From a virus, in IMG/VR virus record IMGVR_UViG_3300046513_000187, positions 1 through 28,854 of that record: a stretch of 28,854 bases of DNA; one strand, written 5' to 3'. Under the pieces are notes generated by a model. It was not told the DNA's origin, searched no databases, and saw only the letters and a list, made by a program, of their open reading frames with translations. Positions 4,729-19,524 of this stretch are shown in pieces; within the stretch, counting starts at the first letter, position 1, and each line of letters starts with the position of its first letter. The position numbers were made by a program, and so were the translations under genes.

Positions 4729-4794
4729 GGGGTTCCTGTGGGATCGGAATCGGTACGAGAACCCCAATTTTGGTCGCGCGCGCGCGAGGTCGAC

Positions 4795-4810
4795 ACTAAA
4801 GCGCTTTAGT
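4795..4810. promoter_or_regulatory. 16-bp perfect palindrome, candidate late-activator site
   Basis: The sequence ACTAAAGCGCTTTAGT is a perfect palindrome centred 74 bases upstream of the gp38-like ATG, in the only sizeable gap of the tail operon (4729-4870). On the minus strand it is preceded by AAAAAT. The same arrangement (five A, then a TAAA..TTTAGT palindrome) occurs upstream of the protease gene. Mor/C-type activators of Mu bind AT-rich dyads upstream of promoters lacking a good -35, so this is a candidate site. A run of alternating CG lies beside it (about 4776-4785). Confidence 0.45.
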
Positions 4811-4870
4811 ATTTTTCGAGGAGACGGGAGCGCGCGCGGCCAGCTGGCCGGCGCGGCGATCGCGGGCGCA

Positions 4871-5464
4871 TCAGGGCGCCGCGTGGGTGGTGAGGGTTTC
4901 GGTGTCGGCGACGTCGTCGCCAGGTGTGATGTAGAACGACTGGCCGGTCTTGATCCAGTCGCCCTCTGTGACGTTGACGCAGTCGGGAAGCGCTGCTTCC
5001 CAGGCGAACTCGCACTGCATCGGGATCGCCAGGATGCTTTCCGCCTGCGCGCCATCGGAGCGGCGGGCCACGAACAGGGTCTCGATTTCCTCGGCAGTGA
5101 GCGGTTTGGTCATCGGCATCCCCAGGCGCTGGTTCTCGAGCAGCGCGATCATGTCCTCGGCGATCTGGTAGCTGCCCGGCTCGTGCATGTCGCCATGACG
5201 GGTGGCGCGCTCGTTGCGCGGGTTGCGGGCGGCAACGTACAACACCAGGTGCACCCGGGCGTGGCGCGCACGCTCGCCCAGGTCGCCCAGCTTCTTCAAC
5301 CTGGTGAAGGACACGAACACGGCCGGGAAGCGGAATGTCGACTGTGTGTCCTCACTGATCTGGCCGCCATAGGTTTCTATCGTAAGCAGCTTGTACGGCC
5401 ACAGCCCGGCGGCCTGCGCAGCCTGGATGCGGGCGACGATTGCGTCCTCGAGCTCGGCGATCAT
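4871..5464 (-). CDS. Gp37/DUF1834-like tail completion protein
   Basis: The product of 197 residues begins MIAELEDAIVARIQAA and contains FPAVFVSFTRLKKLG, a pattern seen in the Mu gp37 (DUF1834) family. In Mu these proteins sit between the gp36 neck protein and the sheath and are thought to join head and tail. Its ATG overlaps the gp36-like stop (ATGA at 5464-5461), which fixes the start; the open frame extends further upstream but that portion overlaps the gp36-like gene out of frame. Followed by a 142-base gap. Confidence 0.82.
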   Translation of the reverse strand: MIAELEDAIVARIQAAQAAGLWPYKLLTIETYGGQISEDTQSTFRFPAVFVSFTRLKKLGDLGERARHARVHLVLYVAARNPRNERATRHGDMHEPGSYQIAEDMIALLENQRLGMPMTKPLTAEEIETLFVARRSDGAQAESILAIPMQCEFAWEAALPDCVNVTEGDWIKTGQSFYITPGDDVADTETLTTHAAP

Positions 5465-5955
5465 GAGAACGTGCCCCGCATGAAGTCGTTCAGCGCGCCT
5501 GGGCCGAAAACCCGCTGGCCGCCAGTGTTGACCTCGGCCTCGCCGGCGGTCAGGTTGGTCGGCTGCAGGCCGCCGCCGGCCGCGCCACCGGCGCCGATCC
5601 CGACCTGGGCGCACAGAATGATCTTGCCGGTGATGATCTGCTGTAGCTTGGCGTCGGCCTCCTTGTAGCGATCGCGCACCTCGTCGGTGGCCGTGATGCC
5701 CGACGATCCGGTCAGCCGGTAGCGGGCAATGTCCATGCACAGCTGCTTGAGGAAGGTTTGCACCTGGACCGCGCTGGTATCAAGCGGCAAGGCGCAACGC
5801 TGGCCGGCGGCGAAGTCGATCTGGTCGGATGCCTTGTCGAGGGCGTTCTGGACGCGCTCGACCACCATCTCGCCGGTGCCGTCCGGGTCTCCGATGGTCC
5901 GCATCTCGCGCTGGCCGAACTCGTCGACCATGTCCTGGGGGGTAGCGTAGTTCAT
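5461..5955 (-). CDS. DUF1320 head-tail connector protein (Mu gp36-like)
   Basis: The 164-residue protein starts MNYATPQDMVDEFG and continues with a helical region (RVQNALDKASDQIDFA...CMDIARYRL), the hallmark of DUF1320/gp36 proteins that form the head-completion ring. A glycine-rich stretch follows at about residues 120-130. GAAAGAG lies just upstream of the ATG at 5955. It overlaps the gp37-like gene by four bases, so the two are probably translationally coupled. Confidence 0.87.
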   Translation of the reverse strand: MNYATPQDMVDEFGQREMRTIGDPDGTGEMVVERVQNALDKASDQIDFAAGQRCALPLDTSAVQVQTFLKQLCMDIARYRLTGSSGITATDEVRDRYKEADAKLQQIITGKIILCAQVGIGAGGAAGGGLQPTNLTAGEAEVNTGGQRVFGPGALNDFMRGTFS

Positions 5956-6031
5956 GCTCTTTCGTCCGATTGGGTGGCTGGAAGAGAAAACCCGGCTGCA
6001 GGGCCGGGTTTCGGGGTTGGGTGACGCTGGA

Positions 6032-6211
6032 TCAACTGTCGGTGGCGGCCGACGCCTGGATCACGTCCGGCTTGCGGATTGCCTTGCAGTCCAGCAGCGG
6101 CTGCGCCTCGTCTTCGTCCAGTTCGACGGGGTTGTCGGGCGGGACGGTCTCGAAGACGCCCTTCTTGCTGGTCGGGCGCTTCAGTGGGGTGCTGGTGATA
6201 TAGGTTGCCAT
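6032..6211 (-). CDS. Small gp35-like protein
   Basis: This 59-residue protein (MATYITSTPLKRPTSKKGVF...) lies between the capsid and gp36-like genes, where Mu encodes gp35. The N-terminal ITSTP..R motif followed by an acidic middle (VELDEDEAQ) is reminiscent of gp35/HI1506-type proteins of Mu-like prophages, whose function is unknown. AGGAGAATCC precedes the ATG at 6211, so this start is preferred over a further-upstream one at 6247. Confidence 0.68.
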   Translation of the reverse strand: MATYITSTPLKRPTSKKGVFETVPPDNPVELDEDEAQPLLDCKAIRKPDVIQASAATDS

Positions 6212-6302
6212 GGATTCTCCTGGTTGGATTGTTCTGGCCTCGACCACATACCGGCCAGGTTCCGCCGGCGCGTGGGGGGCAGATCTCTCTCGGTGGGTGT
6301 AT

Positions 6303-7229
6303 TTAGAACACGTTCTGGATCAGGAAGCCGCCGCCGGCGCCGGCGATGACCGGGGCGCGCTCATGCTTCACGCCGTAGATCCAGGATTCGCGGTTCTCGT
6401 CGCGGTACGGGCTCTTGACGCTCGGCTGGCCCTTGAGGCGGTAGGTGTAGCCGTAGGACGGTGCGCGCTGCGAGCGGAAGTTCTTCGGCACGAAGGCCAG
6501 CACGACGTCGTTACCCCACACGTCCAGCAGTTGGCCGTTCATCTGGTTGGCGTAGATCGCATTGCCTTCGACGACGACTTCCATGTCGAAATACTTGGCG
6601 AGCATCTCGGCGGTGACCGAATCCTTGCTGGTGTACTTCAGGCGCTCGCGCACGTCCGGGTGCTTGTCGAGCTTCCAGATCGCCCCCGGCGGCAGGATCA
6701 TCACGTTCGGGTACTTGCCGGTGGCGGCGCGAATCGCCGCCCGGGCCGCCTGGACGTCGTCGCGCGGGGTCGACGTGGTGGCACTCCATAGTGCAGTACC
6801 GCTCAGTGCGGCCTTGTTGCTGGCGGCATACTGGGCCGGGTCACGTGCGATCTTGGCGCGCTGGTATTCCAGCTTCAGCTGCATCGAGTCGAACACCAGG
6901 CCGACGGCTTCCTTGCCCAGGTCGATGCCGGGAACGACCTTGGCGTCGCGACCGACCTCATCCGGCACGACCGCCTCGAGTGCGTGGTTCTCGCAGGCGA
7001 ACGGCTTGCCCAGGTAGCCGAACTCGATGCGCTTGGTGGCGCCGCCCGGGGCACGCTGGGTGTCGATCAGCAGGAAGGATTCCTTGCCGAACTCGATCAC
7101 CTGGCCACCGGCGGCGTCGACGTCAACCTCGGGAAACAGCAGACTCCCGACGTATTCGTTATTGCTGTAACCACGGACGAACGTGGTCAGAATCGGATCG
7201 ATGACCCGGGCCTGCTGGGGGTTGAACAT
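6303..7229 (-). CDS. Major capsid protein
   Basis: The 308-residue protein follows protease/scaffold and decoration genes, the normal place for the major head subunit. It does not look like Mu gpT. Instead it begins MFNPQQARVIDPILTTFVRG and contains IWKLDKHPDVRERLKYTSKD, resembling the capsid-E/HK97-fold coat proteins of some other transposable and tailed phages. GGAGAACAATA precedes the ATG at 7229, so that start is chosen over an upstream one in the preceding intergenic DNA. The C-terminus (KHERAPVIAGAGGGFLIQ) is coat-like. Confidence 0.82.
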   Translation of the reverse strand: MFNPQQARVIDPILTTFVRGYSNNEYVGSLLFPEVDVDAAGGQVIEFGKESFLLIDTQRAPGGATKRIEFGYLGKPFACENHALEAVVPDEVGRDAKVVPGIDLGKEAVGLVFDSMQLKLEYQRAKIARDPAQYAASNKAALSGTALWSATTSTPRDDVQAARAAIRAATGKYPNVMILPPGAIWKLDKHPDVRERLKYTSKDSVTAEMLAKYFDMEVVVEGNAIYANQMNGQLLDVWGNDVVLAFVPKNFRSQRAPSYGYTYRLKGQPSVKSPYRDENRESWIYGVKHERAPVIAGAGGGFLIQNVF

Positions 7230-7276
7230 TATTGTTCTCCTAGTTTTGGTAAAGAGCTTTTGCTGCCGGGTCTGGC

Positions 7277-7627
7277 TTAGACCGTGGGGGTCAGCAGGAC
7301 CTCGACGATGTCGCCGGCCGCACCGGCCACCTGGCCCGGGCACAGCCTGCCCAGGCAGGCAGCGGCGGTGCCGCCCACGATCGCCCGGCCCTGGGCGTCT
7401 GCGATCACGTACTTGGTGCCGGCGGGGATCGCGGCTCCGGCTTCGATCGGCGCGGTACCCTGGACGCGAACGGGGGCGTACGCGCCGGCTGCGGCGGCAT
7501 CGGCCGCGGCGATGCCGTAAATATCAGTGGCGGCGTGCGCGCCGGCCGCGGTTACGGCGCGGTTCTTGGTGATCGCGCCGGCGGCGGTGACGCCGAGGAC
7601 GAGAACTTCAATGCATTGGTTGCTCAT
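7277..7627 (-). CDS. Capsid decoration/cement protein (DUF2190-like)
   Basis: This 116-residue, very alanine/glycine-rich protein lies between protease and capsid genes. The pattern of short beta-strands (CIEVLVLGVTAAGAI, YAPVRVQGTAPIEAG, PAGTKYVIADAQGRA) fits the DUF2190/decoration fold that binds the outside of mature heads. GGAG sits eight bases upstream of the ATG at 7627. Family assignment rests on composition, length and position; an unrelated small head protein is the alternative. Confidence 0.7.
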   Translation of the reverse strand: MSNQCIEVLVLGVTAAGAITKNRAVTAAGAHAATDIYGIAAADAAAAGAYAPVRVQGTAPIEAGAAIPAGTKYVIADAQGRAIVGGTAAACLGRLCPGQVAGAAGDIVEVLLTPTV

Positions 7628-7664
7628 GCTGTGCTCCGGTTGAGATAGAAAAATGCGGACCTGG

Positions 7665-8168
7665 TCAGCCTTGAACAGCCTTGACCGCTTCGACGAAGTC
7701 GATGCCCGGGTGTTCCTTCATATAGGCGTTCGCCTTCTGCACCACCGCCAGACCCTCGGGGTCGACGTCGTAGCCCGGGGGAGCCGCGAAATCGGCCGTG
7801 CCGCTGCTGGCGCCGCCATCAGCCGCGGGCGGGGCCACGCGGCCATAGACGACCTGCTTGGGCTGGCTCGACAGGAAGGCCTTGAACAGGTCCGCGGTGG
7901 TTTTTCCGTGATGCTCGTGCCCTTCGGCGAAGTCGGCGACCTGGTTGGCTGCGTCCAGCTGGCAGAGGAGAACGACCACCGTGTCCTTTTGACCCGGCAG
8001 CAGGTGGCCGCTGGCCACCAGCGCTTCTGCGAAGTCGGCGTGGTCCGCCTTCTTCAGCGCTGCCTCGCGCGCGGCCAGCTGCGCCGCGAGGTTGGTCAGG
8101 TCAGATTCTTTTTGCGCCAGCGATGCCGCTTGCGCGTCCAGTGCTGCTTTGTTCACGTTGGTCTCCAT
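7665..8168 (-). CDS. Possible internally started scaffold protein (Mu gpZ-like)
   Basis: An in-frame ATG at codon 217 of the protease gene (8168-8166) begins METNVNKAALDAQAASLAQKE, just where the protease part ends and the coiled-coil scaffold begins. Mu makes its scaffold gpZ from such an internal start in I. A product from here would be 167 residues. There is no strong Shine-Dalgarno before it, so this is a suggestion from family precedent. Confidence 0.4.
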   Translation of the reverse strand: METNVNKAALDAQAASLAQKESDLTNLAAQLAAREAALKKADHADFAEALVASGHLLPGQKDTVVVLLCQLDAANQVADFAEGHEHHGKTTADLFKAFLSSQPKQVVYGRVAPPAADGGASSGTADFAAPPGYDVDPEGLAVVQKANAYMKEHPGIDFVEAVKAVQG

Positions 8169-8816
8169 CTGTGGATCGGGGTTGGAAAAGCCCGGCAGCG
8201 CATCGCTGCCGGAGATCTCGTCGCGCACGGCATCCTCGGCGAGGTTGTCGAGCTGGTAGTCGGGAATGATTTTCTGGGCGGCGTCGAGGCCATCCTTGTC
8301 GACGAGCCAGTCACGCAGGCGGCGGAAAATGGAAACAATCGTCCGCGCCTCGTAGCTGAAGTCGAGGATGCCGGCCTCGTCCGCGGCGAACTCGACGGAC
8401 TTCAGGCCCTTGACCGCCGGCGCGGCGCCGCCCAGGAACCCGATGTGGCGTAGGTAGTGCTTGCCGGGCGTCGGGTTGCCCGGGGCATCGGGCAGGTAGA
8501 TCGACGCCGACACCTTCGGGTAGAGCCTGGCGTTGACCGCCTCGGCGAACTCGGGGACGACCTCGTCGGCCTCCGCGCACAGCACGCCGGCATCGTTGAT
8601 GAACAGGCGGCCGGCGCGCCCGAAGCGGGGTGAGGTCAGCTTCGGGTGACCGACGACGAGCGGTGCGTCGGCGAAGCTGGGGTTGTAGGTATCAGCCAGC
8701 TCCTGGACGTGCTGCGCCGTGAACGTGTAGCGCTGCCCGTTCATAGCGACGAAGGAGCCTGCCTTGAAGATCTCGATCGGCTTGATGCCGTTGCTGTCCG
8801 GGTGTTTGGTATCCAT
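7665..8816 (-). CDS. Head maturation protease with scaffold domain (Mu gpI-like)
   Basis: The protein has 383 residues. Residues 1-160 form the protease part, with APLVVGHPKL (about residues 51-60) and YPKVSASIYL (about 99-108), which match the conserved His and Ser regions of Mu I-type proteases. Residues 217-270 are a heptad-rich coiled coil, typical of the attached scaffold (gpZ in Mu). It would cleave the scaffold and itself during head maturation. It is the first gene of the leftward late block, 42 bases after a palindrome, and has an AGGA about ten bases before the ATG. Confidence 0.85.
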   Translation of the reverse strand: MDTKHPDSNGIKPIEIFKAGSFVAMNGQRYTFTAQHVQELADTYNPSFADAPLVVGHPKLTSPRFGRAGRLFINDAGVLCAEADEVVPEFAEAVNARLYPKVSASIYLPDAPGNPTPGKHYLRHIGFLGGAAPAVKGLKSVEFAADEAGILDFSYEARTIVSIFRRLRDWLVDKDGLDAAQKIIPDYQLDNLAEDAVRDEISGSDALPGFSNPDPQMETNVNKAALDAQAASLAQKESDLTNLAAQLAAREAALKKADHADFAEALVASGHLLPGQKDTVVVLLCQLDAANQVADFAEGHEHHGKTTADLFKAFLSSQPKQVVYGRVAPPAADGGASSGTADFAAPPGYDVDPEGLAVVQKANAYMKEHPGIDFVEAVKAVQG

Positions 8817-8852
8817 CAGGCCAGTATCCTTATCGTCGGTACTGGCCGTAAC

Positions 8853-8864
8853 TAAAACGTTTTA
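8853..8864. promoter_or_regulatory. 12-bp palindrome upstream of protease gene, candidate late-activator site
   Basis: TAAAACGTTTTA is a perfect palindrome 37 bases upstream of the protease ATG, in the 204-base gap between mor and the protease gene (8817-9020). On the minus strand it is preceded by AAAAAG and followed by GTTACGGCC, closely matching the 4795-4810 site (AAAAAT, palindrome, GTGTCGACC). Between it and the ATG lies a further inverted repeat, CCAGTA/TACTGG (8821-8845). Probable Mor-dependent late promoter region. Confidence 0.45.
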
Positions 8865-9008
8865 CTTTTTGGACGGCGCGCTGGCTTGAGCGCGGGATTT
8901 GACGGGAAAGTCGGGGAGCAAGTCGGCGCTGATGTGGCCGGGTTCGATTTATAAACGCTGCTGGCGCCGATTTCGCACGCATGGACGTGGAAGCGGTGCA
9001 GCATGGCG

Positions 9009-9034
9009 AAAAAAAACGCCCTAGCGGGCGTTTT
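9009..9034 (-). terminator. Intrinsic terminator at end of mor
   Basis: On the minus strand the sequence AAAACGCCC-GCTA-GGGCGTTTT forms a nine-pair hairpin and is followed by further T residues. It overlaps the mor stop codon (9023-9021), so it should end the early transcript there and separate it from the late block that starts at 8816. Confidence 0.82.
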
Positions 9035-9416
9035 CCTCCGAGGCTGGCTCGCCGAACAGATTGTGCTGACGTGCGGCCCGGTCGGCCTTCATGGCTTGGC
9101 CGATGATCTGTCGAACCCGCATCTCGGTCTTGTCGTACTTGCGCGCCAGCTCGGCGTAGTTGTCGCCCTTGAACTCGCCCCACATCTGGCGATCGCGAAG
9201 GCTCAGCTCGTAGCTCATGCCACGCGGGATGTAGGTGGCCACCCCGCCGATGTTCTTGCGTACGTGCTCTGCTACATTCAGCGCGACCTCGGCCGCCACC
9301 TGGTGCGGAAGCTTAACTCGCGGATCCACCATCAGTTCCTGGTGAATGGTGCGGGCGATATCGGCCAGCACCTCCGGGTAAGACTCATCAAGAAAAAGGC
9401 TAGGAAGCTCGGTCAT
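9021..9416 (-). CDS. mor: Mor-family transcription activator
   Basis: This 131-residue protein carries the Mor/C family features: GGVATYIPRG at about residues 57-66, then a C-terminal helix-turn-helix (FKGDNYAELARKYDKTEMRVRQIIGQA, about 82-108). In Mu, Mor switches on the middle promoter and the related C the late promoters. Only one such gene is visible here, so it may do both jobs. It is the last gene of the early operon, overlaps gemA by 17 bases and ends in a terminator. Its likely targets are the palindromes at 8853, 4795 and 19512 (inference). Confidence 0.9.
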   Translation of the reverse strand: MTELPSLFLDESYPEVLADIARTIHQELMVDPRVKLPHQVAAEVALNVAEHVRKNIGGVATYIPRGMSYELSLRDRQMWGEFKGDNYAELARKYDKTEMRVRQIIGQAMKADRAARQHNLFGEPASEENAR

Positions 9417-9888
9417 GGGCGTCCTCCGATCGCGATTCTACGGTCCGGTTCGCGCCCTCGACCCGGTTCCGCCATTTCTTTAGTGATTCAATAATAACCG
9501 TTACCTGGGCGTTGTTGCAAAACGCAAAGTCCGTTACTCCGGTAATCCGCTTGATGTAGACGCGGATCGCCGCCTCGGTGTTGACCTGCACGGCGTCCAG
9601 GCGGGCCAGCTCGGACCACAGCGCCTGGATCTTGCGGTACTGCGGATCCGCCGCATTGCGGCTGGCCGCCGCAGTCTTGGCGTTGCTCTTGACCTGGAAG
9701 CCTTTCGACTTCATGTGATCCAGCACGTTGCGGCGGCCGCTGGCGTCCAGCTTGGCCGAGGAGTCGACCCCGGCGACGGACTGCAGCATCGCGCGGTAGG
9801 TTTCCTCGTCCAGCTGCAGCTCGCGGCGGCCAACGTGGATCAGCCTGATTTCGCGGTCGCGAGTCTGTTTTTCTTTTGAGTTGGCCAT
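9400..9888 (-). CDS. gemA: GemA/gp16-like regulatory protein (DUF1018)
   Basis: The 162-residue protein has the family pattern IRLIHVGRRELQLDEETYRAMLQSVAGVDSSAKLDASGRRNVLDHMKSKGF split over residues 14-64, typical of Mu GemA/gp16 proteins. In Mu, GemA alters host gene expression and DNA supercoiling-related functions and sits just upstream of mor, as here. The gene overlaps mor by 17 bases. The ATG at 9888 is followed by a lysine-rich start (MANSKEKQTRDREI). Confidence 0.88.
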   Translation of the reverse strand: MANSKEKQTRDREIRLIHVGRRELQLDEETYRAMLQSVAGVDSSAKLDASGRRNVLDHMKSKGFQVKSNAKTAAASRNAADPQYRKIQALWSELARLDAVQVNTEAAIRVYIKRITGVTDFAFCNNAQVTVIIESLKKWRNRVEGANRTVESRSEDAHDRAS

Positions 9889-9893
9889 GATCG

Positions 9894-10583
9894 TTATCCC
9901 AACAGTGCCGGGCCAGCAGCAACGGTACCGACACCGCGGCTAAGCTGTGCCTCACTCCCGGCCGCAGCGCCGGCCAGGACGGCATCCACGTCCTTCTCAC
10001 GCAGCTTGCGGTTCGCGTTTCTGTTGACGAGTTCAAGTTCGCCCATCGACGGATAGCGGTCTTCCAGATAGGTGGCGATCACCTTCGCCTCGTCCTCCCG
10101 GGGTACGAGCGCATGGAGCTTGCCGGTTGCAGCCTTCACCCAGGCCATGCAGAACAAGTCGGCGCGGCGTGTCTTGCTGGCCGGGACCAGGCGCTTGCAC
10201 TCGCTCTTGATGAATGCCGCGCGACTCTTCCGCAGCTGCCGCAGCAGCACGGAAAGCGCATAGGACGCGACCTCGGCGTTCGGACCCAGACCGACGAATA
10301 CCCACTTGCCGCTCGCGTGCAGGCCGCGGAAGAAATAGGCGCACCCGAATGCCGCGCCAATCACTGCGGCGAGCCCGGCCTCCCAGGACGCCGGCTTTCG
10401 CAGAGCGCCGGCGGTTGCCGACGCTTCGGTCACGCCGGCGATGAACAGGTCGGCGTCGGTCACCCGATGCAGCTCCATGAGCTTTTGCGCCTGGCGCAGC
10501 GCGGCCGCGGCCTCGTGCTCGTTCGCGCTCTTGGAGAGCGCCAGGCACTTCTGGATTTTCTTGATGACGTCCTGCTTATCCAT
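9894..10583 (-). CDS. DUF2786-type phage protein
   Basis: The 229-residue product begins MDKQDVIKKIQKCLALSKSANEHEAAAALRQAQKLMELH, split here into its two helices, which is the DUF2786 pattern found in many phages and prophages. The function of the family is unknown. The C-terminal two thirds has a conserved-looking core (ADLFCMAWVKAATGKLHAL). The start at 10583 overlaps the preceding gene's TAA by eight bases and has GAGG nearby upstream. It lies between an unknown gene and gemA in the early operon. Confidence 0.75.
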   Translation of the reverse strand: MDKQDVIKKIQKCLALSKSANEHEAAAALRQAQKLMELHRVTDADLFIAGVTEASATAGALRKPASWEAGLAAVIGAAFGCAYFFRGLHASGKWVFVGLGPNAEVASYALSVLLRQLRKSRAAFIKSECKRLVPASKTRRADLFCMAWVKAATGKLHALVPREDEAKVIATYLEDRYPSMGELELVNRNANRKLREKDVDAVLAGAAAGSEAQLSRGVGTVAAGPALLG

Positions 10584-11178
10584 GGGACACCTCATCAAGG
10601 CCCAGTTCAGCAACTTGGGCGAGCACCTTGTCGGCCATCGCCATGTCGACCCGGTCCAATGCCGTGGCGAAGTCGGCATCGGCCATGCCCCCGATGCTGA
10701 TGGCTGCCTGGTAACCGTCGAAGTTGGCCACGCAATGCAGGACGTTCCCGGAGTCGAAGTCCACTTGCTTGAAAAACAGGACCTGCTGTCCGCCGGTTGT
10801 ACGCACGACCCTCGCAAAGTCATTCGTGCGCGGCGTCGCCGCCTCTTGCTGGCGCGCCAGCAATTCGTGCAGCCGATCGAAGGGCTCGCCCTCGCAGGGC
10901 TGGCCGGCGTACTTCTCGACCGCTTGGCGAAGACCCTCCCAGACCGACCGCAGCTTGGCCACATGGCGTTTCAGCGCTTCCTTGTGCCATTCGAGATCGT
11001 CAGTCATTTTTTCGGCGGCGCCGCGGTGGTGCGCCAGTTGGAGGCGCAAGTCGTCGATTTCGCCGACCATGGCGCGCTCGACGTCGGTCGGCACGTGCAA
11101 CGGGAAACTCGCATCGGCCCCGATCCGCTCGCGCCAGGTCTTGATCATCAGAGGCATATTCTGTTCGCTCCGGTTCAT
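10576..11178 (-). CDS. Hypothetical early protein with coiled coil
   Basis: I do not recognise this 200-residue protein. Residues about 36-90 are helical and heptad-like (VGEIDDLRLQLAHHRGAAEK, then WHKEALKRHVAKL), and the C-terminal part ends in an acidic helix (MADKVLAQVAELGLDEV). GAGGAAACC precedes the ATG at 11178. It lies between DUF3164 and DUF2786 genes, in the stretch of the early operon where Mu-like phages carry variable accessory genes. No catalytic motif is visible. Confidence 0.72.
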   Translation of the reverse strand: MNRSEQNMPLMIKTWRERIGADASFPLHVPTDVERAMVGEIDDLRLQLAHHRGAAEKMTDDLEWHKEALKRHVAKLRSVWEGLRQAVEKYAGQPCEGEPFDRLHELLARQQEAATPRTNDFARVVRTTGGQQVLFFKQVDFDSGNVLHCVANFDGYQAAISIGGMADADFATALDRVDMAMADKVLAQVAELGLDEVSHG

Positions 11179-11185
11179 GGTTTCC

Positions 11186-11833: not shown

Positions 11834-11870
11834 CTTGGGTCCTTCGTTTGTAGTTGTAGAAATGCGTTGT

Positions 11871-12071
11871 CTATGCGTGCGGCTTCCAGAGGAAGTCGGG
11901 CGCCGCGCAGGTAAACAGCGGGGTGTCGCCCTCGGCCACGCGCAGCACCGTCTTGGGCTGGCGCAGCGCGCACAGAAGGTCGGCGGCGGCCTTCAGCACC
12001 GCCTGCTCCTGGTCGCGTGTGAACGAGGCCAAGTTGCGCCAGGCGCCGGCATCCTTGATCTGCAGCTTCAT
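11871..12071 (-). CDS. Hypothetical small early protein
   Basis: A 66-residue protein, MKLQIKDAGAWRNLASFT..., lies three bases after the preceding gene and in line with the operon. The middle is helical (DQEQAVLKAAADLLCAL). The pattern suggests a small soluble protein; no family is recognised. It is supported mainly by tight spacing and codon use like its neighbours. Confidence 0.6.
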   Translation of the reverse strand: MKLQIKDAGAWRNLASFTRDQEQAVLKAAADLLCALRQPKTVLRVAEGDTPLFTCAAPDFLWKPHA

Positions 12072-12074
12072 CGG

Positions 12075-12623: not shown

Positions 12624-12678
12624 GTTGCGGTTCCTCCCCTTGGGTTGCATGCCCCCTCGGACACGCTGCTGTTGAAAA

Positions 12679-13152
12679 TTACGACGATTCTTTCTCCAGG
12701 CTCCGGCTGGTGAGCAGGCTCGGGATGCCGCGGTAGTCGTAGGCGCCGTCGCGGATCGGGCGCTGCACGCCTTGCCTGGCCAGCGGCTTGAATGGCACAG
12801 GCTCACGCGGGGGCGCCGCGCCGGGCGTCACCATGCTCGGCGCCGAGGCATCCTTCGCCTGGTTGGGCACCAGCGCTCCGCTGTCCTTGCCCATCATGGC
12901 GGCTTCGACCTCGTCCATGACCGCGCGCCCGAGTTTGGTCAGCTGCCATGCGTTATTCCTGACCTTGACGATCAAGGCGCTCGAAGCAAGGGTCTTGTAC
13001 GGCCCCTGGCGCCATACGGTTGGCGACAGCCCATCCAGGCCGTGCGCATCCATCAGGACTTGCTCCTCTACCGGGCCGCCATGGCGTGCCAGCTCGACGA
13101 AGACACGGTGAGCACGGCTACCGGTTTCAGGCATCAGATCTTTACGCTTCAT
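12679..13152 (-). CDS. Hypothetical early protein, helix-turn-helix-like N-terminus
   Basis: This 157-residue protein starts MKRKDLMPETGSRAHRVF and has a first half that looks like a winged-helix repeat (GPVEEQVLMDAHGLDGLS..., ending in WQLTKLGRAVMDEV), followed by a proline-rich, probably disordered C-terminal half. The general plan (wing-like domain plus low-complexity tail) resembles the next gene at 12075-12623, so the pair may be related in function. It starts nine bases after the preceding stop. No family recognised. Confidence 0.65.
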   Translation of the reverse strand: MKRKDLMPETGSRAHRVFVELARHGGPVEEQVLMDAHGLDGLSPTVWRQGPYKTLASSALIVKVRNNAWQLTKLGRAVMDEVEAAMMGKDSGALVPNQAKDASAPSMVTPGAAPPREPVPFKPLARQGVQRPIRDGAYDYRGIPSLLTSRSLEKESS

Positions 13153-13160
13153 GATTTTTC

Positions 13161-13484
13161 TCACTCTTGAGGGGTTTCGTACTCGGTGCTGCAGAGCAGG
13201 TGCGTCGACGCGGTCGGCTCGACCATGACGGCGAACATCGTGCCGGCGGCGAACGCCACCACCAGGGCAACCACGCGGAACCACAGCACGGTGGAGGCCT
13301 CTTTCTGGCGCCCCTGCAGGGGCGCCTCGCCGGCCGGGTAGCCTTGCACCAGGTGCGCGCTCGGCACGTGGGGACGGCTCATTAACTGACGCTTCATCTT
13401 GAGCTGGCGGCGCTGGAGGGCCTCGATCTCACGGTGGATCAGTTCACCTCGGATGCGGAACATCAGCTGCTGCAGGCGGCTCAT
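13161..13484 (-). CDS. Small single-pass membrane protein
   Basis: A 107-residue protein with a basic helical N-terminus (ELIHREIEALQRRQLKMKRQ, about 14-33) and one clear membrane segment near residues 65-88 (VLWFRVVALVVAFAAGTMFAVMV). The start at 13484 overlaps the stop of the preceding gene (ATGA), which excludes the longer reading upstream. Its role is unknown. A perfect 20-base palindrome lies inside the coding sequence, in codons around residues 53-59. Confidence 0.66.
   Translation of the reverse strand: MSRLQQLMFRIRGELIHREIEALQRRQLKMKRQLMSRPHVPSAHLVQGYPAGEAPLQGRQKEASTVLWFRVVALVVAFAAGTMFAVMVEPTASTHLLCSTEYETPQE
13307..13326. repeat. 20-bp perfect palindrome inside a coding sequence
   Basis: GGCGCCCCTGCAGGGGCGCC reads the same on both strands. 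It encodes part of the linker before the membrane segment of the small membrane protein. Such a long perfect palindrome could form a hairpin in the early mRNA or be a protein binding site. No T-run follows on either strand, so it is not a simple terminator. Confidence 0.6.
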
Positions 13485-13915
13485 GCTGCGCACCCGATCG
13501 GGATAATCTTCGCCACGGTTGGACGGTAGGCGTGGTCGCCACACGTCCCGGTCGACTGGACCGGCCAGCCGAATCGGCTGCAGCTGCGCGCACCGGAGCC
13601 CTCGCAGCGGGTCTCGTGCTGACAGTTGCCGCACACTGGCGTGATGCTGTGGTAGCCGACCGCGTGCACGACGTCGACCACCGGGCCGGCGTTGGTGGCC
13701 AACCGAAGCACCTGGTGCGCCTTGTGGTGGGCCAGCAGCTTGGCCTGCAGGCGCCCGGCGCCGCTGCCGAGCGGCACCGCGACCATGCCCTTCAGGGCAT
13801 CGAGCAGCTTCTCGTTGATCGACACCAGGCCGACCGCCTCGATGTGGGTGAACGGGCCGAGCACCGGCTTACGCTCGCCGCTCACGAACTGTTCCAGGAT
13901 CTCCATGGCGCTCAT
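13481..13915 (-). CDS. Hypothetical protein with C-terminal cysteine-rich (zinc-ribbon-like) part
   Basis: The 144-residue product has no recognised family. The N-terminal 90 residues are helical; the C-terminal part holds six cysteines (C95, C98, C104, C112, C125, C142), beginning with a CxxC pair in VCGNCQHETRC, which suggests metal binding. The ATG at 13915 overlaps the MuB-like stop (ATGA), so it is probably coupled to it. Position right after the transposition genes suggests an accessory replication or host-takeover role, but this is a guess. Confidence 0.65.
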   Translation of the reverse strand: MSAMEILEQFVSGERKPVLGPFTHIEAVGLVSINEKLLDALKGMVAVPLGSGAGRLQAKLLAHHKAHQVLRLATNAGPVVDVVHAVGYHSITPVCGNCQHETRCEGSGARSCSRFGWPVQSTGTCGDHAYRPTVAKIIPIGCAA

Positions 13916-15138
13916 GCAACCTCCATGACGATTTCGGCGCTCACCTTCTTGGCGGCTATGCTGGCGGCGACGTTCATCGCCCGGGTGACCAGGTTGTTGA
14001 CCACCAGGGGGTAGCAGACCGACACGGCGTCGGTGAGCTTGCCGCCGCGCTGGACCCGGGTCAGTTTGGTCCGGATCGCATCGTAGGCGTCCGCCTCGAA
14101 GATATCGTCCGGATTGCCGCCTACCCGGGCGATCTTGTGCTTCAGGTAGTCCTCCAGGTTGCGGTCCAGCGGCTCGAGCTCGACCACCTCGCAGCGCTGG
14201 GCCACCTCGCGTACCTCGGGGTTGTGGGCCGACAGGCTGGCCTTCAGTTCCGGCTGCCCGATCAGGATCACACCCAGCAGGCGGGCGAAGCCTTCCTTCA
14301 GTTCGCGGAAGCGCTTCAGGTGCTTGAGGGTGGCGATCGGCAGGCTGTGCGCCTCCTCGATAATCAGGACGTGGCTGTTGCCGGCCTTGAAGGAGGCGCG
14401 GAGGGCGTCGTGCAGCTGCTTGAAGCGGGCGTGTGGTGCGCTCTTCAGGGGGGCGTTCGGATCGAGCGTCGAGATGATGGTCTCGGCGATCTGGCCCGAC
14501 TTCAGGGTCTTGCCGAGCTTGTCGTTGTGCTCCATCGCCAGGACGTACGGCTCCATCACGATCACCGATTGCCCATCGCGCTGGATCCGGTCGTTCAGTT
14601 CCTCGCGGATGGTGGATTTGCCGCTGCCGGACTCGCCGACCAGGGCGCAGAAGCCGCCGTTCTTGGCCACGTCCCACAGCAGCTCGCGGCACAGGCGGAT
14701 GTCGGGCGAGAGGAAAACGTCCTCGCGGCTGTTGATGTCGTCGGAGAACGGGCTGCGGAACAGGCCGAAGTGCTTGCGCGCGGCCGGGGTGAGGTTTTCG
14801 TTTTGTAGTAGCATGTCAACGTCCGTTTCAGTCTCTTGGGTTGGAGTGGGCTGTTGCGAGGTCTGCAGCAGAGCCGGTTCCGGGGTGGCCCCCCCGGTGC
14901 CGGCTTTTTTGTTTTCCAGGACGTGGGCGATCGTTTCCGGCGCCACGCACTGGTTGGTGAAAAACGTCACAAGCTTCGCGCGCAGGTCGGCCTCGGCCGC
15001 GCTGGTCTTCGGCCACTGGCCCTGCTTGGCCAGGAGCGAGATGGTCGCCGCGCTGACGCAGCACTCGCGTGCCAGCGCCGCCTGGGATACTCCGATCTGC
15101 TGCAGCAGCTGCTGCAGCGGGGTTTGTTCTGTCGTCAT
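13912..15138 (-). CDS. MuB-like AAA+ ATPase, target DNA activator
   Basis: This 408-residue protein carries an N-terminal Cro-like helix-turn-helix (GVSQAALARECCVSAATISLL, split around residues 16-36), a Walker A motif GESGSGKS at 168-175 and a Walker B region HVLIIEEAH at 256-264. MuB-type ATPases bind target DNA, form filaments and stimulate the transposase, also giving target immunity. The start lies one base after the transposase stop. The N-terminal HTH plus ExeA-like ATPase plan is that of Mu B. Confidence 0.92.
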   Translation of the reverse strand: MTTEQTPLQQLLQQIGVSQAALARECCVSAATISLLAKQGQWPKTSAAEADLRAKLVTFFTNQCVAPETIAHVLENKKAGTGGATPEPALLQTSQQPTPTQETETDVDMLLQNENLTPAARKHFGLFRSPFSDDINSREDVFLSPDIRLCRELLWDVAKNGGFCALVGESGSGKSTIREELNDRIQRDGQSVIVMEPYVLAMEHNDKLGKTLKSGQIAETIISTLDPNAPLKSAPHARFKQLHDALRASFKAGNSHVLIIEEAHSLPIATLKHLKRFRELKEGFARLLGVILIGQPELKASLSAHNPEVREVAQRCEVVELEPLDRNLEDYLKHKIARVGGNPDDIFEADAYDAIRTKLTRVQRGGKLTDAVSVCYPLVVNNLVTRAMNVAASIAAKKVSAEIVMEVA

Positions 15139-15139
15139 G

Positions 15140-16894
15140 TCAGTTCACCGCGCGAAGGGTTGGTCGGGTCTGCAGGCGGGCCTGCAGGGCATCAAGTTCG
15201 GATTCGGGCACGCCGTCGGGATACCACTGCGCGATCGCGCGGTTGTGCTCCGGGGTCATCGTCAGGCCTCGCTTGGCCATCTCTATCGCGGCCCGGGTGT
15301 GCGTCCACGGCTTTTCCTCGATCCTTGGGCTGGTGACGGTCGAGGCGGTGCCGTGGCGCGGCAGGTAGGACGGCGCGACCATGTCGTCATGCGGCTTGTA
15401 CGGGTCGAGCTTGCCCTCGAATGGCAGCGCCTTGGCCTTGCGCGCCGCCTTGGCGCCCTCGAGCGTGTCGGCGCCGGTCAGCAGTTGCTCGACGTTCTTG
15501 GCGTTGGTCTGGGCCGGCGTGTCGGCGTGTCGGCGGTAGGACTCGCCGATCACCGGTGCACCCTGGGCAAAGCCGAACTCACCGCGTTCGACGCGCTCGG
15601 CCACGAAGAACACCTCGCGCCCGTCCGCATCCGAGGTGGCGATCTGCGTTGTGTCCTCGCGCCACGGGTTGCGGCATACCTGGACCTTCTCGCCAACCAG
15701 CACACCAGGCAGGCCGCCGACGTCGTATTCCTGCCCCTTGAAGCTGATGGTCAGGGCTGGCGACACGACCCGGGTTTCTGGCGCCGTTACTGCCAGCTCG
15801 CGGCACAGGGCGACTGGCGGGGCAAACCGCAGTTGCTCTGCAGTGATCTTCATCCAGGCGGCGTAACGGGTCATGCCGTGGCGCGAATGCAGCTGGGTCC
15901 CGTTGAACCACTTCATCCACTTGGCGGCTTTCTCGTTCAGCTCGGCCAGCGAGGACACGTTGATGAACTTCAGGCCGGACTCGAAGGAGCGCTCGACCAG
16001 GTTCTGGGCCTGCTCGACCTGGCCCTTGGCGCGCGGCCGGCCTGGCGTGTTGATCTGCACCTGGACCGAAAGCGCTTTGCACAGGTTCTTGAACAATGCG
16101 CCGGTATTGGCACTGCCAGGGTCGAGCATGGCCATTCTTGGCACGCCGTGTGCCGGGTCGCTGTCGCGCTTCTGGATCGCGTTGATGAACACGTTGCAGA
16201 GGTTCTGCCCGGTCTCGCCCCCGGTCACGTACTCGGCATAGACCCAGCCGCTGGCGTGATCCGTGACCACGTAGCGCCACACGGTGTCGTTTTCGATCCG
16301 CTTCACGTTGGCCGGCTTGTTCTTGTAGAACACTGCGTGATCCATCACCTGCAGGCCGCTGTCCTTGGCGCCGCTCTCCTTGGGCAGGTAGTACAGGACA
16401 CACTGCGAGGCGTCGATCTGCCAGACGTGGTTCGGGTGCTCACTGGCCATGCGTGTAACCGGCTCGGGCGCCAGCAGCTGGTCGGGGTGCAGGCGGTGCG
16501 CGTGCAGGGCCCGGCTGATGGCGGTGGTCGACAGCGTAACCACTTCGCCGCTTCCGGGTACCACCCGCTCCGCGCGGATCGCGCCATTGCTGCGAAGGAT
16601 CTCGACAGCCTGCTCGACCGACATCAGGCGCTTGCCGTTCTTCCGGGTTGACTCCATCAGCACGGCCGAGATCTTCATCGCCTCTTCGCGCGGGAGCGTT
16701 ACCTGGCCAGCGTCGGCACGGCGTTTGCGGGGACGATTCAAGGCGACCTCCTTCAGCTTGCGCAACAAGGTGGAACGGTTCATGCCCAGCTCGGCGGCGG
16801 CGGCGGTGTACACCGCCTCACGCGCCCCGTGCGGCGCAGCGGCCGCTTGCTGGGCGACGGCGACGAGACGGGTGATCAGGGCAGGATTGGACAT
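15140..16894 (-). CDS. DDE transposase, MuA-like
   Basis: The 584-residue transposase catalyses phage integration and replicative transposition. An N-terminal helix-turn-helix lies around residues 32-50 (ELGMNRSTLLRKLKEV). The catalytic domain has D161 in HVWQIDASQ, D258 in MAMLDPGSANTG and E294 in KGQVEQAQNLVER, with a D-35-E spacing. A beta-barrel-type C-terminal domain follows (about 380-440). I use the ATG at 16894; a GTG at 16909 would add five residues. It lies directly upstream of the MuB-like gene, as in all transposable phages. Confidence 0.94.
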   Translation of the reverse strand: MSNPALITRLVAVAQQAAAAPHGAREAVYTAAAAELGMNRSTLLRKLKEVALNRPRKRRADAGQVTLPREEAMKISAVLMESTRKNGKRLMSVEQAVEILRSNGAIRAERVVPGSGEVVTLSTTAISRALHAHRLHPDQLLAPEPVTRMASEHPNHVWQIDASQCVLYYLPKESGAKDSGLQVMDHAVFYKNKPANVKRIENDTVWRYVVTDHASGWVYAEYVTGGETGQNLCNVFINAIQKRDSDPAHGVPRMAMLDPGSANTGALFKNLCKALSVQVQINTPGRPRAKGQVEQAQNLVERSFESGLKFINVSSLAELNEKAAKWMKWFNGTQLHSRHGMTRYAAWMKITAEQLRFAPPVALCRELAVTAPETRVVSPALTISFKGQEYDVGGLPGVLVGEKVQVCRNPWREDTTQIATSDADGREVFFVAERVERGEFGFAQGAPVIGESYRRHADTPAQTNAKNVEQLLTGADTLEGAKAARKAKALPFEGKLDPYKPHDDMVAPSYLPRHGTASTVTSPRIEEKPWTHTRAAIEMAKRGLTMTPEHNRAIAQWYPDGVPESELDALQARLQTRPTLRAVN

Positions 16895-16896
16895 GA

Positions 16897-17769
16897 TCAG
16901 CGGTCCCACTCCGGTTGGGTCTCGCCGTCCGGCGCCGACTTCACGCCGAACTCGCTGCGGATCTCGGCGATCGCGCGCTCGAGCTGGGCGAGCAGGCCGG
17001 CGCAGAACTCGCCCTGGCTGGTGCCGGCCTCGATGTCCTGCTGGCTCAGCTGGGCGATGCCTTCCCGGAGCGGACCGCGGATGATCGCCTCGGCCTGGAA
17101 GGCGTAGTCGCTGGTCTCGCGGCGGACCTCCGCGACCTCCTCGTCGGGGGTCGGCGGCTGCAGCCTGACCTTCTTGGTCTGGAGTCGATCGATCGTGGCG
17201 GACTTGTTTGCCAGGACCTCGTCCTTGGCCTTGGCGTCGGCCTTGGCGTCGCGAAGCGCGACCTTCAGCTCGCGCACCGACATGCGGTCGACCTCGTCCA
17301 GGGTGAGCCCGGCAACACTGCCGCCCTCGGACAACTCGAACAGGTCGTCGTTATCGAGCGTCATCAACTCGAACATCTTCGCCTTGCCCAAAACGGCGAA
17401 CGTCTGCCGTTTTCCCGCCAAGGTGGGATCCGACAGATATTTGACTGCGGCCTGCATCAACTGCCGGGCGGTGCGGGCCGGGAGTCCAAGCTGCTCCTCG
17501 ACAATCTGCGTAAACTCGCCGTGCCCTTCGTGCTCTTTCAGGAGCACCAGACGCTTCCCGGCCTCGAGCATGGCTTCGGCGGCCTGGCCCATGTAGAACC
17601 TGGTCTCCTGGACAACGCGATCGCGGTTGTAGGCGAGCTCATAGCCCATCATCTCAACAACCTGAGCGTTGTTCCCGGCGACTTGAGCCAGGGAGCTTGC
17701 GCCGCTGTCGAGGGCAGCGGTGTCGGCGTCATGGTGCTGGGTTGGTTCGGCGGATTGCTTGCGTGCCAT
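16897..17769 (-). CDS. DUF3102 family protein
   Basis: The 290-residue protein contains FYMGQAAEAMLEAGKRLVLLKEHEGHGEF and LGLPARTARQLMQAA (about residues 58-105), the DUF3102 signature found in BcepMu-like early operons and in some plasmid genes. A charged coiled coil follows (about 170-210). Family function is unknown; the fold suggests DNA binding. GGAG lies seven bases before the ATG at 17769, making it preferable to the ATG at 17781, which has no ribosome binding site. It ends three bases before the transposase start. Confidence 0.82.
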   Translation of the reverse strand: MARKQSAEPTQHHDADTAALDSGASSLAQVAGNNAQVVEMMGYELAYNRDRVVQETRFYMGQAAEAMLEAGKRLVLLKEHEGHGEFTQIVEEQLGLPARTARQLMQAAVKYLSDPTLAGKRQTFAVLGKAKMFELMTLDNDDLFELSEGGSVAGLTLDEVDRMSVRELKVALRDAKADAKAKDEVLANKSATIDRLQTKKVRLQPPTPDEEVAEVRRETSDYAFQAEAIIRGPLREGIAQLSQQDIEAGTSQGEFCAGLLAQLERAIAEIRSEFGVKSAPDGETQPEWDR

Positions 17770-17785
17770 GTGTTTCTCCATCTAC

Positions 17786-18088
17786 TTAGTTGCGGGTAAA
17801 GCGGCTGCGGGCCTCTTCGACCTTGCGGGTTGCGCGATCGAGGGACGACAGGACCTTCACGCCGAGGGCGCCCGGCTTGGCACCGAGCAGCCAGCGGCCG
17901 GTTTCTTCCTGCTGGATCGCCCAGCCGGCAGTCTTGAGGTTCTCCAGGTCGCGGGTGATGTACGAGGCCGGCACGTTCAGGGCCTTGGCGATCTGGGTCG
18001 GGGCGAGGCCGACAACGACGTCCTCACCCAGGATCATCACCACCTTGAGCAGGCGCTGCTGGGCCTCGTTGGTGTACTTGTCGCTCAT
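17786..18088 (-). CDS. Winged-helix DNA-binding protein (IclR-like N-terminal fold)
   Basis: This 100-residue protein has a clear winged-helix pattern: VVVGLAPTQIAKALNVPASYITRDLENLKTAGWAI covers residues about 24-58, with a wing at QEETGRWLLG. It is a probable transcription regulator or early accessory protein. The ATG at 18088 overlaps the preceding stop by four bases. Confidence 0.76.
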   Translation of the reverse strand: MSDKYTNEAQQRLLKVVMILGEDVVVGLAPTQIAKALNVPASYITRDLENLKTAGWAIQQEETGRWLLGAKPGALGVKVLSSLDRATRKVEEARSRFTRN

Positions 18089-18465
18089 GCCGACACCACT
18101 GCATCAAGCGCCGATTTCGCGGCTTTCAGCTGCACCTGGTACATAGGCAGTGCCGGGCTGGGGCGGTGCTTGGCAACGTCGATGCGCGACTTGAGGTAAG
18201 CGACGCGATCGAGCAGTGCGCCTTCAATCTCAGCTAACTCGCTATCGGTCAGTGCGACCTGGTGTGTCGTATGGGCGTCACTTTCGACCACCGGGCCGAT
18301 CACCGTGAGCCCGGAATTCGGGATAAACTTGTTCCCTTCGAGCGAGAAACCAGCAGCCTTGTGGCGCAGTTGGGCTTTCTCAATCGCTTCGCCTTCGCCG
18401 GCTCCGATCAATCCACGGTAGCGCCCTGGGTTGGGGCCGATCACTTGTACTTGGTACAGCTTCAT
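18085..18465 (-). CDS. Hypothetical early protein
   Basis: A 126-residue protein starting MKLYQVQVIGPNPGRYRGLIGAGEGEAIEKAQ. The N-terminal half is beta/alpha mixed and the C-terminal half is helical (SELAEIEGALLDRVAYLKSRI, about 74-94). No family is recognised. It is the second gene of the leftward operon and overlaps the next by four bases. GGAGATTGC precedes the ATG at 18465, supporting this start. Confidence 0.65.
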   Translation of the reverse strand: MKLYQVQVIGPNPGRYRGLIGAGEGEAIEKAQLRHKAAGFSLEGNKFIPNSGLTVIGPVVESDAHTTHQVALTDSELAEIEGALLDRVAYLKSRIDVAKHRPSPALPMYQVQLKAAKSALDAVVSA

Positions 18466-18492
18466 GCAATCTCCTGGTATGCGGTAAGGTTG

Positions 18493-18726
18493 TTATTCGT
18501 CGGTGCCGTCTTCTTGCTCGGTCGCCGCTTTCATCCCCAGCTTGACCGCGATTTCATGGGCCTTTCCCCAGAGGGCTTTATCAAAGCCGCCGAGAACCCG
18601 GTACACCCGATTGGGGTCATAACCATTCTCGATCGCCCATTGCTTGACGGTCTTGCCTTCCTTATGGAACTTCGCCTTCACCTGCTCGGGCGTAAGCAGC
18701 TTCTTGCGAGGGGGTTTCGGTGCCAT
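18493..18726 (-). CDS. BcepMu gp16-family DNA-binding protein
   Basis: This 77-residue protein reads LTPEQVKAKFHKEGKTVKQWA and NGYDPNRVYRVLGGFDKALWGKAHEIAVKLG, which is the pattern of the phage-associated BcepMu gp16 family. The fold is a small helix-turn-helix. As the first gene of the early leftward operon, facing the repressor, it holds the place of Ner in Mu and may turn down early or repressor transcription. Start at 18726; AAAGGCTATGGG precedes it, a moderate ribosome site. Confidence 0.86.
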   Translation of the reverse strand: MAPKPPRKKLLTPEQVKAKFHKEGKTVKQWAIENGYDPNRVYRVLGGFDKALWGKAHEIAVKLGMKAATEQEDGTDE

Positions 18727-18740
18727 CCCATAGCCTTTCT

Positions 18741-18756
18741 GTTAAAGTTGTTTAAC
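18741..18756. promoter_or_regulatory. Inverted repeat near early leftward start
   Basis: GTTAAAGTTGTTTAAC has six-base arms with a four-base spacer. It lies 15 bases upstream of the leftward gene's ATG, inside the divergent control region 18727-18829. It could be the binding site of the gp16-family protein or part of the promoter. A weak -10-like TACACT (minus strand, 18772-18777) lies further upstream. Confidence 0.4.
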
Positions 18757-18777
18757 TGTTTCAGTGAAAACAGTGTA

Positions 18778-18824
18778 GCACCCAAACGGGTGCATTGGTA
18801 GGTTTTTTGCATCCGAACGGGGAC
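18778..18824. promoter_or_regulatory. Pair of repressor operator-like repeats
   Basis: Two similar half-palindromic sites are 31 bases apart: GCACCCAAACGGGTGC (18778-18793), a perfect inverted repeat with a four-base spacer, and GCATCCGAACGGGGAC (18809-18824). They sit between the repressor gene and the divergent early operon; the second abuts the repressor's ATG region, so the repressor could control itself and the early promoter together. Confidence 0.55.
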
Positions 18825-18829
18825 TTTTT

Positions 18830-19198
18830 ATGACGGAGAACAACACCTCAGAGAGGAATCGGTTTGATACTGGCTCTGAGATTCGACGAATACGAGGCAA
18901 CAGGAGTCAGCAAGAATTTGCTGACTTGCTGGGGGTAGGAAGAAACACGATTCAGCGTTACGAGAGCAATGACCGCGCCCCTGATACTGAATTTCTTCTG
19001 AAGCTCAACCTGATTTTTGGAGTCGATCCCAGCCGTGTTGTACTTGGGCGCGAGTCGGGACAGCTGGACAGCGTGAGGGAGCGAGGCTTGGTGCGGGACT
19101 TCCGCGCGGCCTCACCAGAGGATCAGCAGATGATCGAGCGTGTGGCGAAGCTGGCCGCCCAGGTGGCGAGCGGCAGCAAGTCAAAACTTGGTGGTTAA
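18830..19198 (+). CDS. Cro/CI-type phage repressor
   Basis: This 122-residue protein has an HTH_3 domain at residues 14-70: IRRIRGNRSQQEFADLLGVG is followed by RNTIQRYESNDRAPDTEFLLKL. The C-terminal part is a short helical region without a protease domain, so induction would not be by RecA-stimulated self-cleavage. It is the only plus-strand gene facing the early operon, and operator-like repeats lie immediately upstream. Ribosome site is weak (GGGGAC). Confidence 0.85.
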   Translation: MTENNTSERNRFDTGSEIRRIRGNRSQQEFADLLGVGRNTIQRYESNDRAPDTEFLLKLNLIFGVDPSRVVLGRESGQLDSVRERGLVRDFRAASPEDQQMIERVAKLAAQVASGSKSKLGG

Positions 19199-19216
19199 AT
19201 CTAGAGGGGAGATCAG

Positions 19217-19450
19217 ATGGGAATCCTGGTGAATGCAGTTCTGGCGACAGTGTGCTGGCTCGGCTTCTTCGAGCCGCATCTGATCCTGCCGCTGGCGAAC
19301 CGGCCGCTTGTCGACGTGCTGCTCACCCTGACCGCGACCGACGTCGCCTGGTGGCTGCTCTCATTCGCAATCACCTTTGTTGGGATGGCGGTGTTCGACT
19401 ATTACATGACCAGGCGGCCGCGCACCGCAAACCAGCGCCTGTGGCCATAG
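19217..19450 (+). CDS. Small two-span membrane protein
   Basis: The 77-residue product has two hydrophobic segments (VNAVLATVCWLGFFEPHLILPL and AWWLLSFAITFVGMAVFDYYM) and a basic C-terminus. GGGGAGATCAG precedes its ATG. It follows the repressor after 18 bases and might be co-transcribed with it. It could be a lysogeny-expressed membrane protein or a holin-like protein; there is no way to choose from sequence alone. Confidence 0.6.
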   Translation: MGILVNAVLATVCWLGFFEPHLILPLANRPLVDVLLTLTATDVAWWLLSFAITFVGMAVFDYYMTRRPRTANQRLWP

Positions 19451-19460
19451 CGGCGAGCAG

Positions 19461-19502
19461 GGCCAACCGCTCAATCGTGCGCCGCCCATTCTGCGGTTGG
19501 CC
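19461..19502. repeat. 10-bp inverted repeat in the gap before the lysis module
   Basis: GGCCAACCGC (19461-19470) and GCGGTTGGCC (19493-19502) are perfect complements separated by 22 bases. It is the first of several structured elements in the 233-base gap 19451-19683. No T-run follows directly, so a plain terminator is doubtful. Confidence 0.5.
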
Positions 19503-19511
19503 TAAAGTGTT

Positions 19512-19524
19512 GTAAAAATTTTAC
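19512..19524. promoter_or_regulatory. AT-rich palindrome upstream of lysis module, candidate late-activator site
   Basis: GTAAAAATTTTAC is a perfect odd palindrome followed by CGGCTC. It resembles the TAAAACGTTTTA site upstream of the protease gene (there followed by GTTACGGCC on its transcribed strand). It lies about 160 bases before the lysozyme ATG and is a candidate activator site for the rightward late transcript. Confidence 0.35.

Follow-up and report, generated by a model that had tools for sequence, protein, structure and literature searches.

Candidate Mor-dependent late promoters with a conserved -10/start codon register in a Mu-like phage that carries a single Mor-family activator

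Here we describe three related sites upstream of late genes in a Mu-like phage which are very probably Mor-dependent sigma-70 late promoters devoid of a -35 element; such promoters would form a one-step late switch, with leaderless starts at the protease and gp46-like genes. The window, i.e. the whole stretch of DNA analysed, spans the 28,854 bases of an IMG/VR virus record and represents a Mu-like phage truncated at the left edge, right after the tape-measure gene. Its - strand encodes a MuA-like transposase, GemA, Mor, the head protease, capsid, gp37, a gp38-like protein, sheath and tape measure, while its + strand encodes an HTH repressor (18830-19198), lysozyme, terminase, portal and a D12-class adenine methylase. 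We take the terminase, portal and tape measure to be such from their position and their resemblance to known counterparts. The gp38-like gene opens the sheath/tail block and has a leader with AGGA ahead of the ATG, and the endolysin gene is the first of the right-arm late block, with a GAGGA Shine-Dalgarno sequence ahead of its ATG. The relevant features are listed in Table 1.

Table 1. Positions of the sites and genes discussed, in window coordinates
Feature	Position	Strand	Evidence and remarks
gp38-like gene (DUF2635)	4525..4728	-	PHROG 208, 8.7e-17; DUF2635 below cut-off
P38 -10 hexamer CAAAAT	4767..4772	-	CAGAAT in most relatives
P38 dyad, 16 bp, ACTAAAGCGCTTTAGT	4795..4810	-	Matrix score 33.1, rank 1; preceded by AAAAAT
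Head maturation protease	7665..8816	-	PHROG 976, 1.1e-106; ATG 6 nt past -10, predicted leaderless
P-protease -10 hexamer GATACT	8823..8828	-	22 bp past dyad; conserved in alignment, at the spacing peak
P-protease dyad, 16 bp, Mor-type, AGTAAAACGTTTTAGT	8851..8866	-	Matrix score 30.8, rank 2; conserved in relatives; preceded by CCAAAA (UP-like)
Terminator-like hairpin CGCCC-GCTA-GGGCG + T8	9009..9030	-	Seen directly; overlaps mor stop codon
mor, 131 aa	9021..9416	-	Pfam Mor, 4.7e-26; no second Mor-family activator gene found in the record
P-lys dyad, 16 bp, AATAAAACGCTTTGAT	19596..19611	+	Matrix score 22.4, rank 3; true third site
P-lys -10 hexamer TAACCT	19634..19639	+	Layout in relatives, matrix analysis
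Endolysin (phage lysozyme)	19684..20211	+	Pfam Phage_lysozyme, 3.9e-28

The initial annotation had named three related palindromes, two of which were borne out. ACTAAAGCGCTTTAGT (4795-4810) and TAAAACGTTTTA (8853-8864), both read on the - strand, are exact palindromes upstream of the - strand gp38-like (DUF2635) and head-protease genes, and they do share a flank, the common stretch on the coding strand being TAAARCGYTTTAGTKWCGRCC. The palindrome named on the lysozyme side, GTAAAAATTTTAC (19512-19524), is not a relative of the other two and was rejected: it consists merely of two 6-bp arms and one central base without the shared flank, it was present only in the window among all loci scanned, and relative G002 lacks it upstream of the lysozyme promoter, which is conserved in other respects. 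The true third site was found 86 bp beyond this palindrome, also upstream of the lysozyme gene, where the 12-bp core TAAAACGCTTTG (19598-19609, +) is followed by ATTACCGCC. The pattern TAAARCGYTTTA, built from the two palindromes first noticed, matched both of them in the window with 0 mismatches and position 19598 with 1 mismatch, all other places having at least 2. A 21-bp pattern admitting all three sites gave exactly 3 matches at up to 3 mismatches as against 0.01 expected from 100 shuffles, an expectation which is not an independent test, the pattern having been composed after all three sites had been seen. With a weight matrix made from 32 unique sites of 16 records, the window's own sites included, the three sites ranked first to third in the window, and ranks 4 and 5 were the same palindromes read on the opposite strand. 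The score of the third site was reached by 0 of 100 shuffled windows. None of the window's eight best matrix matches lay before the Dam methylase gene at 27513.

All three sites have a common layout on the coding strand, namely an A-rich flank, the 16-bp dyad, exactly 22 bp, and an xAxxxT hexamer (CAAAAT, GATACT and TAACCT). The dyads are made up of 5-bp inverted repeats around a 6-bp centre, in which, as judged by eye, 4/5 arm positions pair in AGTAA-AACGTT-TTAGT, 5/5 in ACTAA-AGCGCT-TTAGT and 3/5 in AATAA-AACGCT-TTGAT, the weakest; 4/5 pair at the Pm promoter of Mu, where the distance to the -10 is the same. A scan for sigma-70 promoter-like sites, carried out for the P-protease region only, found none in 8700-9500. 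In 16 Mor-bearing records, an xAxxxT hexamer followed the 12-bp core at 24 bp in 36 of 80 oriented TAAA-N4-TTTA dyads (sites partly non-independent, reducing to 32 unique 22-column sites), whereas no other spacing tested between 8 and 44 gave more than 8 of 80. In two copies, in relatives G004 and G010, the distance was 25 instead of 24 bp. The spacers (4773-4794 and 19612-19633 in the window) are often alternating CGCGCG, a sequence type able to adopt unusual helix forms; three CG or GC repeats in a run were present in 20 of 26 main-clade spacers, compared with 2.9% of random 22-mers drawn from these records.

The motif search in related phages that had been proposed found the sites kept at homologous late genes. 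Relatives were retrieved by their Mor protein and, separately, by the DNA pattern alone. Comparison of G001-G011 (full or partial records) revealed four recurrent promoter classes, preceding the protease (hexamer GATACT), the gp38-like gene (CAGAAT in most), the lysozyme gene (TAACCT, TAATCT or TACTCT) and a gp46-like baseplate gene (GAGAAT in most; Pfam GP46, 3.9e-15). P-lys is conserved in G002, G003, G005, G006, G192 and G267. The fourth, gp46-like copy lies in G002 about 9 kb past the gp38 site, and the corresponding promoter would fall outside the window, past its left edge. When IMG/VR was scanned for the core followed by N24-GATACT-N6-ATG, nine of the 10 matches were head-protease starts (M[DEK]T...KPIEIF), the exception being L015; six of these nine contigs were already known through Mor and three were new. 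No match was obtained when N24 was replaced by N23 or N25, nor when the centre was inverted (0 in each of the three scans). A CARAAT scan was rejected as independent evidence, being near chance with a gp38-like context in 4 of 41 matches (L006, L016, L028 and L054); the remaining matches look like chance, mostly in AT-rich sequence. In a panel of 44 entries with flanks retrieved, several of them fragments (G007 was omitted because its sites are those of G005), at least one N24 match was present in 11 of the 29 entries outside the main clade, and 18 of the 29 had no such site. The two matches of Mu in this panel (L079:14429 and 16292) were put down to chance, given their location within genes or well away from known promoters.

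Two other features were seen around the end of mor. The stop codon of mor lies in the loop of the hairpin at 9009-9030, which would part early transcripts from late ones; its stability (-10 kcal/mol) is unremarkable, with a z of only -1.1 against shuffles, and it was not listed by a consensus terminator scan. Several relatives likewise have inverted repeats of this sort after mor. In 12 of 16 records, a ten-base block, CGTTTATAAA (often palindromic, CGTTTATAAACG), occurs a single time between mor and the protease gene (8948-8957, -, in the window). In Mu, the gyrase cut site occupies the gap before protease I, and the block has no demonstrated sequence match to it.

The layout extends to more distant phages. 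Pseudomonas phage Bise (Mor 46% identical) has four sites with an ATG 6 nt past the hexamer, all of which are annotated gene starts, and a fifth, weaker match (L080:21636) with no ATG at that place; G216 (Mor 39%) has two sites. Pasteurella phage AFS-2018a carries the TAAA-N4-TTTA dyad with the 24-bp distance at four places, ahead of the amidase gene, the peptidase gene, a tail-assembly gene and a baseplate gene. Its best match lies before the tail-assembly gene (L145 22250, +), and another high-scoring match (L145 16747, -) is on the opposite strand and adjoins the protease promoter. Recognition helix and dyad did not sort cleanly in the 44-entry panel: the helix of AFS-2018a is SMQWIYQI, yet TAAA-N4-TTTA sites are present, and no TAAA-type dyad was found in the 14.9-kb contig of G861 (helix SPMRVRQI). 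No convincing sites were seen in phiSHP3 and two Shewanella phages. In Burkholderia phage KS10, whose strongly diverged Mor falls under the Pfam cut-off, the main matrix found no site of this sequence, the best score being only 0.2. Another dyad, GTGAAA-N2-TTTCAC, precedes its protease, holin and baseplate genes, 24 bp from CAGACT, TAACCT and GATCAT. This dyad was found by eye and counted afterwards: 28 candidates had up to 3 mismatches, 5 of them had an xAxxxT hexamer at 24 bp, and the protease, holin and baseplate sites were the only ones of the five with up to 2 mismatches. According to the part of the genome report available (PMC2628397), the annotated KS10 protease starts with a TTG located immediately before the dyad. 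With the TTG at 18120, the dyad at 18126 and an in-frame ATG at 18177 (L190), the ATG, 7 nt past CAGACT, fits the layout better than the TTG does.

The register between promoter and gene suggests leaderless messages. An ATG was present 6 or 7 nt past the hexamer in 24 of the 36 sites (21 at 6, 3 at 7). Of these 24 ATGs, 21 begin ORFs of 114 aa or more, four of the 21 being in Bise and two in G216 (one G216 ORF was cut by the region's end in this count and measures 137-146 aa on fuller sequence), and the other three open short chance frames at lysozyme promoters. The -10 and start codon of the protease and gp46-like genes are locked 6, rarely 7, nt apart. Since sigma-70 transcription usually begins about 7 nt past the -10, the message would begin at or beside the ATG, giving leaderless mRNA, and the protease message probably begins at its first codon, as judged from spacing alone. 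No earlier in-frame start codon was found upstream of the window's protease ATG before the stop at -48. The N-terminal stretch of the protease varies in length between relatives and is always in frame with KPIEIF, so it behaves as coding sequence should. It is possible, though we hold it unlikely, that the dyads are Mor sites and the protease and gp46-like messages nonetheless carry leaders, arising from an upstream start or from early read-through and translated from a weak ribosome site. The AAGGA located 10 nt ahead of the protease ATG in the window would suit such a message, as would the unremarkable strength of the terminator after mor; however, this AAGGA is not kept in relatives, the distance from -10 to ATG is 6-7 nt at all 21 long-ORF sites, and P38 and P-lys of these phages are followed by leaders that contain ribosome sites.

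The protein binding the dyads is most likely Mor. The window protein matched Pfam PF08765 with 91.3 bits (cut-off 24.9), and its relatives in the PDB are 1rr7 (Mor, 9.5e-08) and, below 1e-6, 9l0x and 9vw8 (C). One Mor-family protein was found in each of 9 records, where the same search in Mu found two (Mor and C); Bise, AFS-2018a and KS10 have one Mor-family gene each. A C gene beside mor, as expected for a C-dependent late promoter of the Mu kind, was found in none of the 9 records. The Mor site of Mu Pm has been footprinted as a 16-bp element centred at -43.5 and containing two 5-bp inverted repeats, as given in the accessible text of PMC4390567. Bases -57 to -52 of Pm are GTAAAC in Table 3 of that source, which corresponds to Mu 9167-9172; therefore the Mor site is Mu 9173-9188, AGTAAAGCCGGTTAAT, 22 bp from TATCCT. 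The weight matrix, none of whose sites came from Mu, placed this footprinted site first of 73,346 Mu positions. It remained first without the -10 columns, and its score was reached by 0 of 100 dinucleotide-shuffled Mu genomes. Identity of AGTAAAGCCGGTTAAT to the window sites, counted by eye, is 11/16 (protease), 11/16 (gp38) and 10/16 (lysozyme), and the A5 or A-run flanking the window sites lies where Pm has its alpha-CTD (proximal UP) subsite. The second-best matrix match in Mu (L189 379-422; 16.4) exceeds the maximum of all 100 shuffles and lies inside the repressor gene c, antisense to it; it is possibly another Mor site. The suggestion that the sites serve the single Mor-family activator and define a late regulon on both arms is thus well supported by comparison as to its core, with one Mor protein in 9/9 records and the layout of the footprinted Mu site, the right arm being carried by 19596-19611 instead of the lysozyme-side palindrome.

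Binding by a host regulator of the LacI/GalR kind, without involvement of Mor, appears very unlikely. Operators of this kind also have a CG centre, and the core TAAARCGYTTTA resembles them; but the sites track phage late genes across phages of different hosts, at the position of a promoter activator, the best match in Mu is Mu's own Mor site, and KS10 changes the dyad while keeping its layout and places. Least probable of all is use of the sites by another phage DNA-binding protein (Ner-like or CI-like) repressing late genes in the prophage, since, although the phage does encode an HTH repressor, none of the eight best matrix matches falls in the early/repressor control region (18727-18829) and the protease promoter region (8700-9500) has no consensus -35 promoter to repress.

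With Mor as the binder, the following course is proposed. Mor would be produced at the end of the early operon, and a Mor dimer would occupy the 16-bp dyad (consensus ACTAAARCGYTTTAGT), centred about 43 bp ahead of the transcription start. There it would replace the -35 element and, in the manner of Mor at Mu Pm, recruit the RNA polymerase of the host by way of sigma region 4 and of an alpha-CTD on the A-rich flank. In one step, Mor would activate the head block (protease), the tail block (gp38/sheath) and the lysis/packaging block of the other arm, and in relatives the baseplate block (gp46) as well; the intermediate C tier of Mu would be absent. This suggests a regulatory cascade shorter than that of Mu. 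We put forward more tentatively, as a generalization of rather low probability, that Mu-like phages with a single activator form a widespread group in which Mor alone drives the late programme, the activator site, the -10 and the start codon being fixed in register and the head-protease and baseplate messages being leaderless.

The layout provides a sequence rule by which late promoters and start codons can be predicted in Mu-like phages, uncultivated and cultured alike, and which ties these predicted promoters to the single well-studied Mor promoter. If real, the conserved leaderless starts would make these structural genes of a double-stranded DNA phage a set that is both leaderless and controlled by an activator. 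Translation of the proteins that start assembly would then hinge on 70S/start-codon recognition, and their messages would be set apart from the leadered lysis message of the same activator, e.g. so as to place assembly before lysis. A literature search of partial coverage (titles and abstract openings) found no paper on single-Mor late promoters or on leaderless Mu-like late genes.

In the lambda cI mRNA from PRM, and in other leaderless mRNAs, the start codon lies at the 5' end of the message. Compared with these, the leaderless start predicted here would be a conserved trait of activated late structural genes. KS10 shares with the window phage the two-arm gene order with mor directly before the protease, as far as the available part of its description goes (PMC2628397), as well as the arrangement of dyad, 24 bp and -10, with the protease ATG 7 nt past the -10; it differs in the sequence of the dyad. 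The late promoters of Mu (Plys, PI, PP and Pmom), which depend on C, resemble the window sites in that one activator of the Mor/C family serves several late operons, and in that one promoter precedes the lysozyme gene and one the head protease I, as described in the accessible portions of PMC4287176. In contrast, the window phage has no C gene, its sites resemble the Mor site, and promoters of its type stand before gp38 and gp46, not before P and mom; none of the 12 best matrix matches in Mu fell in Mu's late promoter regions. In Mu, Mor activates C and C activates the late genes, whereas in the window phage Mor would activate the late genes directly. With Pm the window sites share the 16-bp dyad of 5-bp arms and 6-bp centre, the 22 bp to the -10, the lack of a -35 and an A-rich alpha-CTD subsite immediately upstream of the dyad, in so far as Pm is described in the portions available (PMC4390567, PMC4287176). 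According to the same portions, however, Pm drives the middle operon that produces C, while the like sites of the window precede late genes. The window promoters are a variant of the known Mor promoter rather than a system of a new kind; what is unexpected is the absent C tier and the conserved register of -10 and ATG.
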